Below, piece after piece: positions 11,357 to 31,734 of a stretch of DNA of 41,635 nt. Positions within the stretch are counted from its first letter, which is position 1; the number at the start of each line of letters is the position of its first letter. Below the pieces are notes generated by a model. The model was given only the letters and a program-made list of their open reading frames with translations. It ran no database searches and was not told the origin of the DNA. The stretch is from Candidatus Moraniibacteriota bacterium (GTDB lineage Bacteria; Patescibacteriota; Minisyncoccia; Moranbacterales; UBA2206): assembly GCA_030679995.1 (NCBI GenBank), contig JAUXSK010000007.1:1-41635 (forward strand), read 5' to 3'. Position numbers and translations under genes: made by a program.

Positions 11357-11752
11357 CTATCTATTTAAATATGTAATTGTCAACTGCAACACTGTTGCAA
11401 AAGAAACCCAGAGCAGATATGGAATTTGGATATAGGCAATCCATCGGACATGGAGATAAATTGCAACCATTGCCCAGACAAGGGTTGAAAGCACCAGCAA
11501 AATATCGACTGCCGCAAGAAAGTTACTTTTTAGTCCGAACTGCAAGGGAGTGAAGGCCAAATTAAAAACAAGATTTAAAAAAAACGGCAAGGCAACCAAG
11601 AATGCTATTTCCTTTTTCCAAGCCAGCCAGAAAACTTTTCCAAAAGATACTGCAATGAGAACATACAAAAAAGTCCAAACTGGACCAAACAAAAAAGATG
11701 GAGGAGCCCAAAATGGTTTAACAAGCTGCAAATACCAATTGTATGAATTCAT
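11357..11752 (-). CDS. TspO/MBR family protein (short form)
   Basis: WYLQLVKPFWAPPSFLFGPVWTFLYVLIAVSFG and PYLLWVSFATVLQLTITYLN. Confidence 0.93.
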   Translation of the reverse strand: MNSYNWYLQLVKPFWAPPSFLFGPVWTFLYVLIAVSFGKVFWLAWKKEIAFLVALPFFLNLVFNLAFTPLQFGLKSNFLAAVDILLVLSTLVWAMVAIYLHVRWIAYIQIPYLLWVSFATVLQLTITYLNR

Positions 11753-16723: not shown

Positions 16724-17830
16724 TTATATTCCCCTCGCTTTCGTCGGATTACAGGCAGGATGATTTTGTAAAATGCATCCTTCACATGTTGAAGGAACCA
16801 TGTCAGACAGCGAGAGGCGTTCTCGTGGGATATGTGGGCAATAATAGAAGCTTGCCCGCGGACAGCCTGTCATATCAAAAGCAGAACCACGACAACCGCC
16901 CGTGCAATCATCGAAGTGCTTACACTCATCCCGGCAATATCCATATATCCACTCATGTGGATTTTTTATGATCTGCCGCAAGGGATGCTGTAATATTGAG
17001 TCGAGTCCACCCTCAATGTGTCCATAACTAATGTCCTGATGCCCAACGCATGGAATAGATGTGCCATCAACTTTGAAATGAACTGATGTTTCCAGCATGT
17101 GACAAGTTTTGCCATAAGCCTGAGGGCTTAAAATATCTGCGCCTTTCCGCTGAAATTCCTCCTCATCAATTTCACGTAATTTCTGCAAAACCGACAACAT
17201 CTCTCCAGCCGTGATGTCCAGGCTACAGGATCTTTTAAATCCTGAACCTTCCTTAGTAAATTCCATCACTGGCTCGTATCCCTTCTGACGACACCAACGA
17301 AAAATCTCAAAGATGTCGCCAGATTCCACTACTGGCCGAGTAATACAGCATTGCACGCAAACTCTTTCCGATGGAAACATCATTTCCACATTCTTCCATG
17401 CCTGATACGAAGTTAATAGATGACTACCTCCAGTGAGTAATGATTCGAGCTTTTCAGCCTTAGCGTCATTATTGAGCGTATGCCGCTGCCCTGCAATTAT
17501 AACACCTGCTTCATAAATTTTGCGGCAGAATTCGACATCACTCAACTTGTCCATATTGCTCACCAAAATAACCGGATTGAATTTCCCATTAACATACTCG
17601 AGAAATTCAAATAGCTCAGGATGCAAAGTCGGTTCTCCGCCAAGAATGTAGAACTCGGTAAACTTAAGCCTAACCGCCTCATCCACAATCCTTGTGAATA
17701 TAGCATAGCTCATCTGACGCGGTGAATGAGTAGCAAAACAAGTTGGGCATCTGCGGTTACACACCTCAGTGATATCAATACCAATTCCTGTAAGGCTTTG
17801 CTCGTTTTTGGAAATTTCGCGAAACGGCAT
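16724..17830 (-). CDS. Radical SAM protein with SPASM-like C-terminal cysteine cluster
   Basis: ITEVCNRRCPTC (CxxxCxxC), LGGEPTLHPE; C-terminal CVGHQ..CRDECKHFDDCTGGCRGSAF..GCPRASFYYCPH...CEGC. Confidence 0.93.
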   Translation of the reverse strand: MPFREISKNEQSLTGIGIDITEVCNRRCPTCFATHSPRQMSYAIFTRIVDEAVRLKFTEFYILGGEPTLHPELFEFLEYVNGKFNPVILVSNMDKLSDVEFCRKIYEAGVIIAGQRHTLNNDAKAEKLESLLTGGSHLLTSYQAWKNVEMMFPSERVCVQCCITRPVVESGDIFEIFRWCRQKGYEPVMEFTKEGSGFKRSCSLDITAGEMLSVLQKLREIDEEEFQRKGADILSPQAYGKTCHMLETSVHFKVDGTSIPCVGHQDISYGHIEGGLDSILQHPLRQIIKNPHEWIYGYCRDECKHFDDCTGGCRGSAFDMTGCPRASFYYCPHIPRERLSLSDMVPSTCEGCILQNHPACNPTKARGI

Positions 17831-17842
17831 ATGCTACCCCCC

Positions 17843-18202
17843 CTATGAACGAATTATAATGCTTCCGCATTTTTTCTCTGGTGAATATAGTCCAAAAAAA
17901 CTATTGAGGCCATTGCTTATTGGTACGATATGTATGTCGCCCTGTATCTTTTTTTCAGCTCTTCTTCCAACTTTTCCAAGTCCAGAAGTCTCGCAATATA
18001 TTCCACCTCCTATCCATATCCCTTCGACTTCCTTTCCTAGATTAATTTTTTCACTTTGCTTTTCCACCATTGTTATTACTGCCACATAGGTTTCTCCATT
18101 TTCAGCAACAAAAGTGACAGTACCATTTGAGCGGTGAGAATTGTTAAAAGCATAGAGTACATCCTTAAGCGTTGGACCATTCTTTAGATTTAACTTTTTC
18201 AT
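17843..18202 (-). CDS. Hypothetical protein (119 aa), first ORF >60 aa after the T-box leader
   Basis: ATG preceded by AAGGAGA; ends 12 nt before the radical SAM ORF. Confidence 0.75.
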   Translation of the reverse strand: MKKLNLKNGPTLKDVLYAFNNSHRSNGTVTFVAENGETYVAVITMVEKQSEKINLGKEVEGIWIGGGIYCETSGLGKVGRRAEKKIQGDIHIVPISNGLNSFFGLYSPEKKCGSIIIRS

Positions 18203-18390
18203 TTCATTCTCCTTTTTGGTTTTTCATGACAGGTTAACGACTTTCTTACCATGTTTTTGCAAAAAATATTTGCAATTTCCCCACAAGATGTCAGCCTCCT
18301 CTTTGCATTTCTGGAAAATTATAATTCGCTCATCACCTCCAATTTTTCAAAGAACTTTTACTCAACAATGTTGAGCCGGGTTTTTGTTAA

Positions 18391-18710
18391 AAACAAAAAA
18401 CTCCCCGTCTTTTTGCCAAATGTAAAAACATTAGACAAAAGGACGAAGAGTCATACAAAAACCTCGTGTTGCCACCTTTTTTCCGAGAAACAAAAAACTG
18501 CCACGGATGTGCCAGCACTGTTTCCCGCTCATCAACTCAGACTTCGCTTTTCGCGAACGACATTGATTATCCCATGATTACGGAGGATGCCGAATCTCCA
18601 CTCACGCAGAGATCACCTTTCCGCCACTTTGGCGGATAAGCCAGACCCAACCCCGAATTTCTTCGGGATCCAACTTTTAGGCTTTGTAATTTTCAAAGTA
18701 TCTACAGCTT
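18391..18710 (-). promoter_or_regulatory. T-box leader with antiterminator and intrinsic terminator
   Basis: Minus strand AAAAGGTGGCAACACGAGG...CTCTTCGTCCTTTT (T-box and antiterminator, 18441-18480); terminator CTCTTCGTCCTTTTGTC...GGCAAAAAGACGGGGAGTTTTTT (18391-18450). Confidence 0.9.
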
Positions 18711-18921
18711 AGCACTAATAAAAAAGTTGTCAAGCGCTTGCGGCACTTTTTGCTATTTTTTAGTATAAATAGAAGTTCCTTGTTGCCGTCCGCGCAAGGG
18801 TGGGTTTTGGGCCAAGGACGGCCAAAGATATAAAACGAGATATTGGGGTCAGATACCTTTTTCTATTCCTGCGATTTTTGGCAAAACAAAAAGCGCATCT
18901 GGTAAAAATGCGCTTTTTCAT

Positions 18922-21000: not shown

Positions 21001-21131
21001 GCTTATAAGTTTTATAAAATAAGTATACCACACTACATCACTATTCCAAGTAACAAAAAACGACTTTAGATCAAAAAATCATAACCAAAAAAAGGCTCTT
21101 TTGAGCCTCTTTTTGCGTATATTATTCACTG

Positions 21132-21202
21132 CACGGGTGGAGAGAATCGAACTCCCGCCAAGGGTTTTGGAGACCCTCGTTCTGCCACTAAACTACACCC
21201 GC
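21132..21202 (-). tRNA. tRNA-Trp (CCA)
   Basis: GCGGGTGTAGTTTAGTGGCAGAACGAGGGTCTCCAAAACCCTTGGCGGGAGTTCGATTCTCTCCACCCGTG; loop CTCCAAA, anticodon CCA, G73. Confidence 0.95.
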
Positions 21203-27336: not shown

Positions 27337-28482
27337 ATGCTCAAAAAGAAATATTTGCTTATTTTCGCCCTAGTTTCCATTCCTTTCGGCATTTTACTGG
27401 CCATAAGCAATTCCTCGGATAAAATTACGGCATCCACCGATACCCCGGGCAGAAAAGTGGTGACGACCCCGATTACGCTTGTCGAATTTTCACCCCAAAG
27501 CCCCTATTGCGGATTCGCAGTCGGCGCCCAACGGGCTGAAATCGTTCCGGAAATAAACGGCACAATCCAAAAACTTTTCAAAAATGAAGGCGACACCGTC
27601 CGCACCGGAGAAACAATCGCCATCATAGACGACTCGACTATCGATGCGCAAGCGTCCGGATTGGCCCAAGTTTCCAGTGATTCGCAAAAAACATACGATG
27701 ATACCAAGAAACTTTACGCCCAAAAAGTCGACGAAGCCAAGGCCGCCCTCAAAAAAAGCAAAGTTAGCTATGATGACGGGGATGCCACCAGAGAAGATGT
27801 GAAGTTGGCCGAGGAAGCGGTCAACAGCGCCAAGCGCGCCCGCGATTTGCAGATTTCCGCCGCCCATATCCAGGTTTCCAGCGCTGAAAGCCAGCGATCA
27901 GTCGCCGACAGTTATGCGCAAAAACGGATCATCCGCGCCCCTTTTTCCGGCACGATCACCCGGCGCCACACGACAACCGGTTCATTTGTCGCTGCCGGAA
28001 CGCCCATCTATTCCCTTTCCGCTCCCGGCGCGATAGAAATCGAATTTAACATCCCCCAACGGATAATCACCAACCTCGCCGCCAATCAAAAAATCGACCT
28101 CATTAAGGAGAATTCCGCGATTACATCCGGCTTCGTTTATGCCAAAAATCCTTTTTCAAATTCAGCCGATTCGAACGGTATCGTCCGTTTGCGCACGAAA
28201 AATCCGCTAGAAAATCCTGTTTTGATCGGAGATTATATCTGCGCCAAATTTCCTTTGGAAAATCCCAAAGAGGCGCTGGCTGTTCCGGAAAACTCCATCC
28301 TGCATGAATTCGGCGACTCTTTTATCTTTGTCGCCCAAGATAGCATCGCCCGCAAAAAAAACGTCACCACCGGCGCGACTGCGGAAGGCAGGACGGAAAT
28401 CCTCTCCGGATTGCAACCTGGAGAAATAGTCATCACGCAAGGTTTGAATGAAATCGATGATAATGATCTGATAATTTATTAA
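27337..28482 (+). CDS. RND efflux periplasmic adaptor (MFP/HlyD family)
   Basis: EINGTIQKLFKNEGDTVRTGETIAIID, RIIRAPFSGTITRRHTTTGSFVAAGTPIYSL. Confidence 0.93.
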   Translation: MLKKKYLLIFALVSIPFGILLAISNSSDKITASTDTPGRKVVTTPITLVEFSPQSPYCGFAVGAQRAEIVPEINGTIQKLFKNEGDTVRTGETIAIIDDSTIDAQASGLAQVSSDSQKTYDDTKKLYAQKVDEAKAALKKSKVSYDDGDATREDVKLAEEAVNSAKRARDLQISAAHIQVSSAESQRSVADSYAQKRIIRAPFSGTITRRHTTTGSFVAAGTPIYSLSAPGAIEIEFNIPQRIITNLAANQKIDLIKENSAITSGFVYAKNPFSNSADSNGIVRLRTKNPLENPVLIGDYICAKFPLENPKEALAVPENSILHEFGDSFIFVAQDSIARKKNVTTGATAEGRTEILSGLQPGEIVITQGLNEIDDNDLIIY

Positions 28483-28500
28483 TGCGCCATCGAATATCCT

Positions 28501-31500
28501 ATGGACAACGAAAAAAATACCGTCGGTATCTCAGGCAGAATCACACGCCTTTTTCTTAATAACCGCGAGCTAAGCATCCTCTCTATCCTCATCATTGCCG
28601 CCTGGGGCATCGTGAGTTTTGTTTTGATGCCTAAACAATACAATCCGGAAATCGTCGCCCCGGCCTTTATCATTTCCACCGATCTTCCCAACGCCACCAG
28701 CCAGGAAGTTTTTGAGTTGGTCACCCGCCGGATGGAAGACACTATCAAGGAAATTCCCGAGGTGGATGAAATTTCCTCCCAATCATTTTCCGGCGGCCAA
28801 AGCATAGTGATGGTCAAATTCTATGTCGGTTCTGATTTGGAAAAAGCCAAAATAACCCTTACCCAGAAAATGCGCGATAACGCCCAATTGAAACCTGCCG
28901 GCGCTTCCGATCCGGTCGTCCAAACGATGGATCCGGAAGATGTCCCGATTATTTCCATCGGCCTTACTTCTGACAAATTTTCTGAGGAAGCTTTGCGCAA
29001 AGCGGCCATCACCATCTCCGACAATCTTAAACAAATTGACGGAACATCCAAAATAGAAATCAAAGGCGGACGCATCAACAATCTCAATGTGAATCTTGAA
29101 GCCGGAAAACTTGCCGCGTTAAAAATTTCCCCCCTTGAAGTCACCCAGGCCATCCAATCAGCCAATGGAACCTACGGGGTGCACGCGCTCAAAAACGAAA
29201 ACTACAATTCCGTTTTGACCGTCGACGGCAATATCCAAGATGTCCGAGAATTGGAAAACATCATCATCCGATCGCAAAATTCCTCGATTATCCGCGTGTC
29301 GGATGTCGCTACGGTAAATTACGGATCGGGAGAAATCACTGATTATGTCCGCTTGCGCGAGAAAAAACGATCCGATTCCGCTAAGCCGGTAGTCTATATC
29401 GCTATCTCCAAATTAAAAGGCACCAATGCCACGACAGTTGCCAATGCGATTATCGCCAAATTGGATGCCGGTAAAAATTCCTATATCCCGCGGGAAATTG
29501 AAACCCAAATCCTCCATAATGAAGGTGCGACCGCCGATGAAGAAATTACCAAGCTATCCATCGAACTGGCCAAATCGATCGCTATCGTCGGCGCGGTGCT
29601 CTTTTTAATCTTGGGATTCCGCAGCGCACTCATCGTTTCGCTGGTTATCCCGCTCATCCTTTTAGCGGTTTTTGCCGTCGGCGACCTGTTCGGGCAAACG
29701 ATCAACCGCATCACCCTTTTCGCCCTTATCCTCTCACTCGGTCTTTTGGTGGATGATGCCATCGTGGTCGTGGAAAATATCAACCGCTATTTCCGGATGA
29801 AATTAGGCCTAAGCAAAACCGAAACCGTAGTGCGCGCCGTGGACGAAGTCGGTTCGGCTCTTTTTATGTCCACTCTTACGATGATCCTGGCTTTCGTGCC
29901 GATGGCCTTCGTTTCAGGGATGATGGGGCCATACATCGGACCGATTCCTTTTTTTGTGCCAGTCGCCCTGGCGGCTTCCCTGCTTTTCGCCATCACCCTT
30001 AATCCGTTTTTCGCCCATCTCTTCACCAAAGAACAAACGCAGGAAAAAAAGCCGAATGTCATTAACCGCGCTATCGGAAAAATCGAAGCGATTTATGCCA
30101 AAACCATACAACTATTGCTTGATAACCAAAAAGCGAGGCGGATATTTTTAGCCGGAACAGCCATCGCCATCATCGCCTCCCTCTCATTGCCACTATTTAA
30201 AATCGTGAAGTTCCGGATGCTGCCCAAGGCCGACAAAGCGCAATTCTATCTCTATTTCGATTTGCCTAACGGAACCGATATAGAAAAAACCGACTCGCTT
30301 TCCGCGGAATTGGAAAAATCCATCCTGACGCAGAACAACGTCGAAAGTGTGGAAAGTTTTGTCGGGCAATCACAAATCGTCGATTTCAACGGGCTCTTCA
30401 AAGGAAGTTCGTTCCGCGTCCAGCAAAATCAGGCGACACTAAAAATAAACCTGACCGATCCGGAAAGCCGGAACGCGACCAGTGAAGAAATCGCTTCGGA
30501 AGTCAGGCGTATTTCAGAAAAATTTTCCCTGTCGCATCCGGACGCCAACATAAAAATCGTCGAGGATCCGCCAGGACCACCGGTGCTAGCCACCCTCTTT
30601 CTGAAAATCCAAGGAGAGGATACTGAAAAAATAACCGCTATCGCCCGCGACATAAAGAAAACCGTTTCCACTATTGACGGGATTGTCGATCTTGATACTT
30701 CCATTCCGGAACAGAATGCCAACAAAACCTATCGCATTAACACGGAAAAATCCCAGCAACTTGGCATCGCTCCCAGCAGCATCAACCAGGCTCTTTTTCT
30801 TGGCCTGCACGGAATGCCTGCCGGCGCCTATCATCGCCAAAACAATGCACTCGGCCGGATGAGCGACCAGGAACAGATTATCGTCCGCCTGGATGGGACA
30901 GACCGGCAATTTATCGAGGATTTGAACCGATTGACTGTGCCATCCCAAAACGGGACACCGATCCCCCTGTCCGAACTCCTGATTGAAACTAATTCCAAAA
31001 TCGACAGCTTAATCTATACCGATGAACGGCAAAAAACCGTTTCCATTTCGGCGGAAATGGAAAACCGGAGCGTGGTATACGCGGTATTCGATATCTTTCC
31101 TAAATTATTGGATTATAAATTGCCCGGCGCCCGTGAAACAAAAGCTGACTGGACTCCTTTCGGCGTGACCTACACCGACACGGGAACCGGCGAGCAATAT
31201 TCCGTCATAATCGACGGGGAATGGAAACTCACCTTGGAAGTGTTCCGCGACCTGGGAATCGTGATGGCACTCGTGATGTTTTTGATTTATTTCGTCGTCG
31301 CCGCCCAAACCGAATCGCTAGTTATCCCGCTTCTGATTATGGGCAGCATCCCGCTTTCACTTATCGGAGTCTTGCCGGGATTCGCCATCTTAGGAGCCAT
31401 CAAAGGCACTTATTTCAACGCGACCTCGATGATCGGAGTCATCGCCCTATCCGGGCTGGCGGTCAAAAACGCCATCATCTATCTGGAATATTTGGAACCG

Positions 31501-31734
31501 CTCCGCAAAAAAGGTTTGCCGTTGAAAGATGCATTGGTCGAAACCGGACGCATCCGCCTCCTGCCGATTATCCTCACCTCCCTCACCGCCATTCTCGGCT
31601 CCCTCACCATCGTCAGCGATCCGGTTTGGGAAGGTTTGGCCTGGGCGATCGTTTTCGGTCTCACCGCCTCCACGTTGCTCACCCTGCTGGTGTTCCCGAT
31701 TCTCTATTATCTTTTTGAGCGGAAAGAAAAATAA
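28501..31734 (+). CDS. RND family efflux transporter (AcrB-like)
   Basis: 1077 aa; LSLGLLVDDAIVVVENINRYF, GSALFMSTLTMILAFVPMAFVSGMMG. Confidence 0.96.
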   Translation: MDNEKNTVGISGRITRLFLNNRELSILSILIIAAWGIVSFVLMPKQYNPEIVAPAFIISTDLPNATSQEVFELVTRRMEDTIKEIPEVDEISSQSFSGGQSIVMVKFYVGSDLEKAKITLTQKMRDNAQLKPAGASDPVVQTMDPEDVPIISIGLTSDKFSEEALRKAAITISDNLKQIDGTSKIEIKGGRINNLNVNLEAGKLAALKISPLEVTQAIQSANGTYGVHALKNENYNSVLTVDGNIQDVRELENIIIRSQNSSIIRVSDVATVNYGSGEITDYVRLREKKRSDSAKPVVYIAISKLKGTNATTVANAIIAKLDAGKNSYIPREIETQILHNEGATADEEITKLSIELAKSIAIVGAVLFLILGFRSALIVSLVIPLILLAVFAVGDLFGQTINRITLFALILSLGLLVDDAIVVVENINRYFRMKLGLSKTETVVRAVDEVGSALFMSTLTMILAFVPMAFVSGMMGPYIGPIPFFVPVALAASLLFAITLNPFFAHLFTKEQTQEKKPNVINRAIGKIEAIYAKTIQLLLDNQKARRIFLAGTAIAIIASLSLPLFKIVKFRMLPKADKAQFYLYFDLPNGTDIEKTDSLSAELEKSILTQNNVESVESFVGQSQIVDFNGLFKGSSFRVQQNQATLKINLTDPESRNATSEEIASEVRRISEKFSLSHPDANIKIVEDPPGPPVLATLFLKIQGEDTEKITAIARDIKKTVSTIDGIVDLDTSIPEQNANKTYRINTEKSQQLGIAPSSINQALFLGLHGMPAGAYHRQNNALGRMSDQEQIIVRLDGTDRQFIEDLNRLTVPSQNGTPIPLSELLIETNSKIDSLIYTDERQKTVSISAEMENRSVVYAVFDIFPKLLDYKLPGARETKADWTPFGVTYTDTGTGEQYSVIIDGEWKLTLEVFRDLGIVMALVMFLIYFVVAAQTESLVIPLLIMGSIPLSLIGVLPGFAILGAIKGTYFNATSMIGVIALSGLAVKNAIIYLEYLEPLRKKGLPLKDALVETGRIRLLPIILTSLTAILGSLTIVSDPVWEGLAWAIVFGLTASTLLTLLVFPILYYLFERKEK

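Follow-up and report, generated by a model that had tools for sequence, protein, structure and literature searches.

The region from 18733 to 18395 on the minus strand of the window (the whole 41,635-nucleotide stretch analyzed here) is best explained, with high confidence on comparative sequence grounds, as a transcriptional T-box riboswitch that senses tRNA-Trp. Promoter, full T-box leader, and intrinsic terminator all lie within this region; ~305 nt of leader follow the promoter, and the terminator ends at 18395. The features of the leader and of the genes behind it are as follows.

18706 to 18733, minus strand: promoter, assigned by sequence, with TTGACA (−35) at 18733-18728, a 16-nt spacer, and TAAGCT (−10) at 18711-18706
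18679 to 18682, minus strand: 5′ strand of the Stem I base helix, GCCU, partner 18618-18615; double-sided changes in 4/4 pairs, 96% of cells paired
18639 to 18675, minus strand: Stem I specifier arm, with lower helix 18675-18669/18645-18639 and upper hairpin 18667-18652 (GAAA loop)
18647 to 18649, minus strand: predicted specifier codon UGG (Trp) within the internal loop of the Stem I arm, with the purine G18646 directly after it; from conservation
18620 to 18636, minus strand: extra hairpin between specifier arm and Stem I base helix, closing a three-way junction; conserved, with compensatory changes and variable length
18615 to 18618, minus strand: 3′ strand of the Stem I base helix, AGGU; from covariation
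18594 to 18613, minus strand: Stem II hairpin; double-sided changes in 5/5 pairs
18569 to 18592, minus strand: Stem IIA/B pseudoknot, CGGCAUCCUCCGUAAUCAUGGGAU, with F-box CCGUAA; CGG/CCG invariant
18531 to 18567, minus strand: further hairpin, AUCAAU...GUUGAU; seen in homologues, outside the scored covariation set
18485 to 18526, minus strand: Stem III, GGGAAAC...GUUUCUC, with an inner hairpin; seen in homologues, outside the scored covariation set
18438 to 18479, minus strand: antiterminator (T-box), AAAGGTGGCAACACG...TCGTCCTTT, with bulge UGGCAAC (18474-18468) for the tRNA 3′ end GCCA
18395 to 18451, minus strand: intrinsic terminator with T6 (−25.4 kcal/mol); strand CUUCGUCCUUU common to the antiterminator
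18344 to 18356, minus strand: boxA-like element AGUUCUUUGAAAA just past the terminator; from motif count, putative in function
17843 to 18202, minus strand: first gene, a 119-amino-acid orphan protein without a Pfam or NCBIfam match
16724 to 17830, minus strand: radical-SAM protein (PF04055) with a SPASM-like C-terminal region

The T-box reading, which an initial annotation of the window had put forward, draws support from covariation, from paralogues and homologues, and from gene context. Rfam model RF00230, with which that annotation had suggested a check, aligns over its full length, from first to last model position, though the match is weak: a search of 801 bases gave E 7.6e-4 and 26.6 bits, under the gathering score of 93 bits, which is a database cut-off rather than a biological trait and is exceeded in 9/290 Patescibacteria genomes. 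In a plain Rfam scan of the window, tRNAs alone reach gathering scores. Folding of the whole leader scores z = −6.7 against dinucleotide shuffles, and a grammar of T-box, antiterminator, and T-run found 1 match in the window and 0 in 200 second-order Markov copies; a chance origin of the leader was ruled out on these two results. The miRNA-like Rfam matches on the terminator hairpin were dismissed as chance matches to an inverted repeat.

The TTGACA element noticed upstream in the initial annotation does start at 18733, and the −10 sequence TAAGCT is acceptable, giving a sigma-70-like promoter. Homologues keep TTGACA-N16/17-TGCTAYAAT at the same position.

Covariation was scored across 21 leaders on a structure comprising the base helix, the two helices of the specifier arm, the extra hairpin, Stem II, IIA, and the IIB pseudoknot. 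In this alignment 97.0% of cells are paired, a percentage that is somewhat flattering because the structure was drawn from the same 21 sequences; shuffles give 88.5%, and sliding the 3′ partners by 1 to 3 columns drops pairing to 33 to 61%. Double-sided changes are the stronger evidence, and they occur in 20/29 base pairs, pseudoknot included, with 68 such cells observed versus 19.5 in shuffles and 3 to 11 with slid partners. In the specifier arm, 99.3% of cells are paired in the lower helix and 100% in the upper, with double-sided changes in 7/11 pairs, while the AUCC/GGAU helix of Stem IIA/B covaries in 2/4 pairs. The arm ends in a short hairpin whose loop, GAAA in the window, varies among homologues, and the distal elbow-binding module (the interdigitated double T-loop) is absent from Stem I. 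Two short palindromes that had been thought to obscure the specifier are present and prove to be conserved leader elements, one forming the upper arm of Stem I (18667-18652) and the other the extra hairpin (18636-18620); the specifier itself can be placed at 18649-18647, just 3′ of the first.

The antiterminator described earlier on the minus strand is also borne out. The T-box segment at 18479-18438, folded alone, forms a canonical antiterminator (5-bp A1, 7-nt bulge UGGCAAC, 6-bp A2; −6.9 kcal/mol), and the canonical fold recurs in 20/20 leaders, where 10 or 11 of the 11 pairs are kept through G-C/A-U exchanges. The mutually exclusive terminator with its T6 run, likewise proposed from the letters alone, spans 18451-18395 and is 18.5 kcal/mol stronger; each of the 20 inspected leaders shares its T-box strand between the two folds, pairing in either antiterminator or terminator. 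The presence of this intrinsic terminator sets the leader apart from a terminator-free switch that hides a Shine-Dalgarno sequence.

The bulge UGGCAAC lies one base off UGGNACC, and this deviation, together with an orphan target gene in the window and a relative (L071, in genome G018) whose leader is without antiterminator and terminator, could be taken to mean a decaying T-box that has lost its regulation. We consider such a relic highly unlikely, since the window leader retains all of its helices along with an intact specifier, terminator, and promoter, and since the AAC bulge recurs in both copies of this genome and in their homologue from the same genus. In all, four related leaders share the UGGCAAC form.

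The leader is thus best read as an intact T-box, and its specifier as UGG, so that tRNA-Trp would be the sensed tRNA; this assignment is supported by the invariance of UGGG, the fit of the bulge, and the trp genes and trpS found behind the leader in relatives. UGGG is invariant in 38/38 leaders, comprising the 21 aligned (21/21) and 17 further ones (17/17) found by a covariance model across the class and read directly. A purine after the specifier codon is customary. In the shortest leaders (L150 and L152) the arm is so reduced that the codon sits in the apical loop. The bulge base is C or U among leaders, both of which fit the G73 of tRNA-Trp; the window carries a tRNA-Trp gene with anticodon CCA and G73 at 21131-21202. 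The tentative guess of tRNA-Trp in the initial annotation, made from the bulge, is upheld by the specifier and by the relatives' genes. The ileS leader of the same genome has an AUC loop and bulge UGGU, and the glyS leader has a GGC loop and bulge UGGA. The usual discriminators are A73 for tRNA-Ile and U73 for tRNA-Gly, so the bulge bases U and A of these two leaders serve as an internal control.

A UGGC bulge alone would suit any G73 tRNA (Ser, Asn, Asp, Gln, or Glu), and the loop GGUUGGGU also holds GUU, UUG, and GGG, so a T-box reading a different codon in the same loop is conceivable. The chance of this is very slim: UGGG alone is invariant, the preceding position takes all four bases among homologues, and relatives carry the leader before trp biosynthesis genes and trpS. 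Specificity for proline, raised by the proB/proS genes behind the paralogue on contig C30, was ruled out, as a separate promoter and leader-peptide attenuator serve those genes and the leader codon is UGG. Still harder to credit is a tryptophan attenuator in which a ribosome stalls on a Trp-rich leader peptide. A terminator does stand ahead of genes that are Trp linked in relatives, and in the same lineage proline genes seem to be under a leader-peptide attenuator; however, conservation tracks the RNA helices and the T-box and F-box signatures rather than a reading frame, and by inspection no conserved Trp-rich frame was noticed in the leaders.

The genes behind the tRNA-Trp T-box differ among relatives. 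NCBIfam models confirmed trpE and trpF at L137, between which trpG, trpD, and trpC were read, giving trpE-G-D-C-F; trpE followed by trpS at L145; trpS at L136 and L142; trpB and trpA at L084; and trpB2 at L078 and at L148, where trpS was read next. Other targets of the Trp leader are a TrpD-like phosphoribosyltransferase with BtpA, HAD, M20, and PfkB proteins; EamA transporters; small CxxC proteins; and a GCS2-like ligase with an aspartoacylase-like protein. At three loci (L133, L134, and L135), radical-SAM, EamA, TrpD-like, HAD, M20, PfkB, and BtpA genes cluster near trpS and a Trp T-box, and this cluster could represent an uncharacterized tryptophan-linked pathway. At six (L007, L071, L072, L073, L077, and L084), the first gene encodes a small protein with Cys pairs (zinc-ribbon-like), most ending in GW-G/R; two small CxxC proteins checked against NCBIfam had no match. 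The L071 leader (G018:C6), in which antiterminator and terminator are lost, keeps Stem I to III and is followed directly by a boxA-like site and a small zinc protein ending in GWGGG.

In the window, as the initial annotation had said, neither an aminoacyl-tRNA synthetase nor a transporter follows the leader, and the genes that do are without a known tryptophan link. The 119-amino-acid orphan has no homologue among 143 relatives. The radical-SAM gene starts 12 to 13 nt after it, and the two are likely cotranscribed. Homologues of the radical-SAM protein are rare (4/143 relatives), yet all lie within ~1.5 kb of a Trp T-box leader, upstream of it; two of the carriers (G111 and G114) are closely related, which leaves no more than three independent cases. 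Structure prediction gave mean pLDDT values of 46 for the radical-SAM protein (4 sequences) and 41 for the orphan, too low for a fold search. The genome's own trpS is on contig C18, with no T-box match nearby, and the whole genome holds a single PALP-family gene. Past the terminator, GTTCTTT occurs in 16/34 post-terminator regions versus 0.6 expected, and the boxA-like 13-mer occurs once in the whole genome. The motif was rejected as T-box specific because it is found in other 5′ leaders of the order too; the assembly holds no SSU rRNA for a boxA comparison.

The host is a member of Candidatus Moranbacteria (Patescibacteria) with a 0.99-Mb genome, 99.3% complete and with 0.02% contamination. 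It carries four T-boxes, each an RF00230 match: those of ileS (C8:5018) and glyS (C8:14709), both genes named from reading the protein sequences, the window leader, and the C30 paralogue. RF00230 matches occur in 110/143 relatives (E ≤ 0.01) and in 87/290 genomes sampled across the phylum (~30%; E ≤ 1e-5), and BLASTN with the leader found close homologues in ~20 genomes of the order. One exact DNA pattern search for the IIA/B core, which misses divergent leaders, in a collection that may omit this genome's own records, retrieved named records that are mostly Candidatus Moranbacteria or Parcubacteria; a few bear other or unplaced labels, among them one “Micavibrio.” These names and the matches in relatives agree with the candidate phyla radiation context assumed at the outset. 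T-boxes are best known from Firmicutes, so a misassembled Firmicute contig, named in the initial annotation as what would refute its reading, or a chance match might be suspected. The probability of such an artifact is negligible: S2 and tRNA genes lie on the same contig, a paralogue lies on another, some 20 independent genomes of the order, a part of them named, carry homologues, contamination is 0.02%, and random windows gave zero grammar matches. The named homologues, the low contamination, and the matches in relatives therefore identify the T-box as the host's own rather than a Firmicute contaminant.

The initial annotation had also called a T-box in this setting unusual. This holds insofar as no synthetase or transporter gene follows, but the leader is no lone oddity, since T-boxes occur in about 30% of the sampled Patescibacteria genomes. 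In the open-licence literature, no paper was found that links the T-box to Moranbacteria, to Patescibacteria, or to the candidate phyla radiation, and the TBDB article does not mention candidate phyla (PMC7778990). As far as this search showed, T-boxes are common in Patescibacteria yet undescribed, although some leaders may already be listed in sequence databases such as Rfam. Among the other Moranbacteria T-boxes (loci L008-L031), most stand before an IleRS-like gene, their Stem I being ultrashort and its apical loop carrying AUC; two stand before an AspRS-like gene and have GAC instead.

The anatomy, covariation, mutually exclusive folds, specifier, and gene context of relatives are the observed part of the mechanism; tRNA binding, charging dependence, and read-through would follow as in established T-box biology. 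RNA polymerase would start near 18699 and transcribe the leader, and UGG in the Stem I arm would pair with the anticodon CCA of tRNA-Trp. An uncharged tRNA-Trp would dock its 3′ end GCCA on the UGGC bulge and hold the antiterminator, allowing read-through into the 119-amino-acid and radical-SAM genes. Charged with tryptophan, the tRNA end could not dock, and the stronger terminator would form and stop transcription at 18395. By this analogy, the leader most likely switches its genes on when charged tRNA-Trp is short.

Like the transcriptional T-boxes of Bacillota (trp operon, trpS), these leaders have a specifier followed by a purine, Stem II, IIA/B with F-box, Stem III, an antiterminator with a UGGN bulge, and a terminator, with Trp targets in relatives. 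Unlike them, the Moranbacteria Stem I arm is short and lacks the distal double T-loop by which the tRNA elbow is gripped; here an extra hairpin makes a three-way junction, radical-SAM and orphan genes are targets, and about half of the leaders have a boxA-like element past the terminator. A review describes the distal Stem I module as essential to transcriptional T-boxes, whereas translational ones, mostly from Actinobacteria, generally lack it (PMC7583486); a terminator-type leader lacking it is the main departure from known T-boxes. The Actinobacteria T-boxes with intermediate or ultrashort Stem I (ileS; PMC7583486) also have no elbow-binding module, and their apical-loop codon is shared by Moranbacteria ileS, aspS, and glyS leaders and the shortest Trp leaders; those T-boxes mostly act on translation, masking the Shine-Dalgarno sequence, whereas these leaders have an intrinsic terminator. 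Moranbacteria leaders perhaps rely on Stem II together with the IIA/B pseudoknot, in the way that the review describes for short-Stem-I types (PMC7583486). The rtpA (anti-TRAP) T-box of B. subtilis, a tRNA-Trp T-box before a small zinc-binding protein (PMC11255114), resembles the C30 paralogue and several relatives in which a small CxxC-type protein, often ending in GWG, comes first; the likeness is one of layout, the two small proteins tested having no NCBIfam match.

We tentatively suggest, while leaning slightly against it, that Patescibacteria have their own class of transcriptional T-box without an elbow-binding Stem I, within which a Moranbacteria Trp branch commands a tryptophan-starvation regulon of uncharacterized genes (those for the radical-SAM protein and for the small zinc proteins with a GWG end, and the TrpD-like/BtpA/EamA cluster next to trpS). 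A common view of bacteria with tiny genomes, probably host dependent, is that most of their regulation has been shed; those considered here appear to keep direct tRNA sensing of amino acid starvation. The distribution bears on the age of T-boxes, which may be older than the Gram-positive lineages or have spread by transfer, and leaders that have a terminator but no elbow-binding module put a stated rule of T-box mechanics to the test. In addition, the invariant UGG marks uncharacterized genes as tryptophan linked in organisms that can hardly be cultured.

Further observations concern neighboring genes. A TspO/MBR tryptophan-rich sensory protein is encoded at 11357-11752 of the window, on the same strand and ~6.6 kb after the T-box, and HlyD-type and AcrB-type RND efflux genes occur at 27337-31734 in this Patescibacteria genome. 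At L007 (G000:C30), ~260 to 560 nt after the T-box, and at L077, a terminator, a new promoter, a leader peptide, and a second terminator precede a proB-like gene. The proline leader peptide has 29 codons with three conserved prolines (MNNFKYANSIPADPRPRQLGCLCVFEINR), and the gene order at L077 is proB-proC-proA; by its sequence, this region is likely a ribosome-mediated proline attenuator in Patescibacteria.
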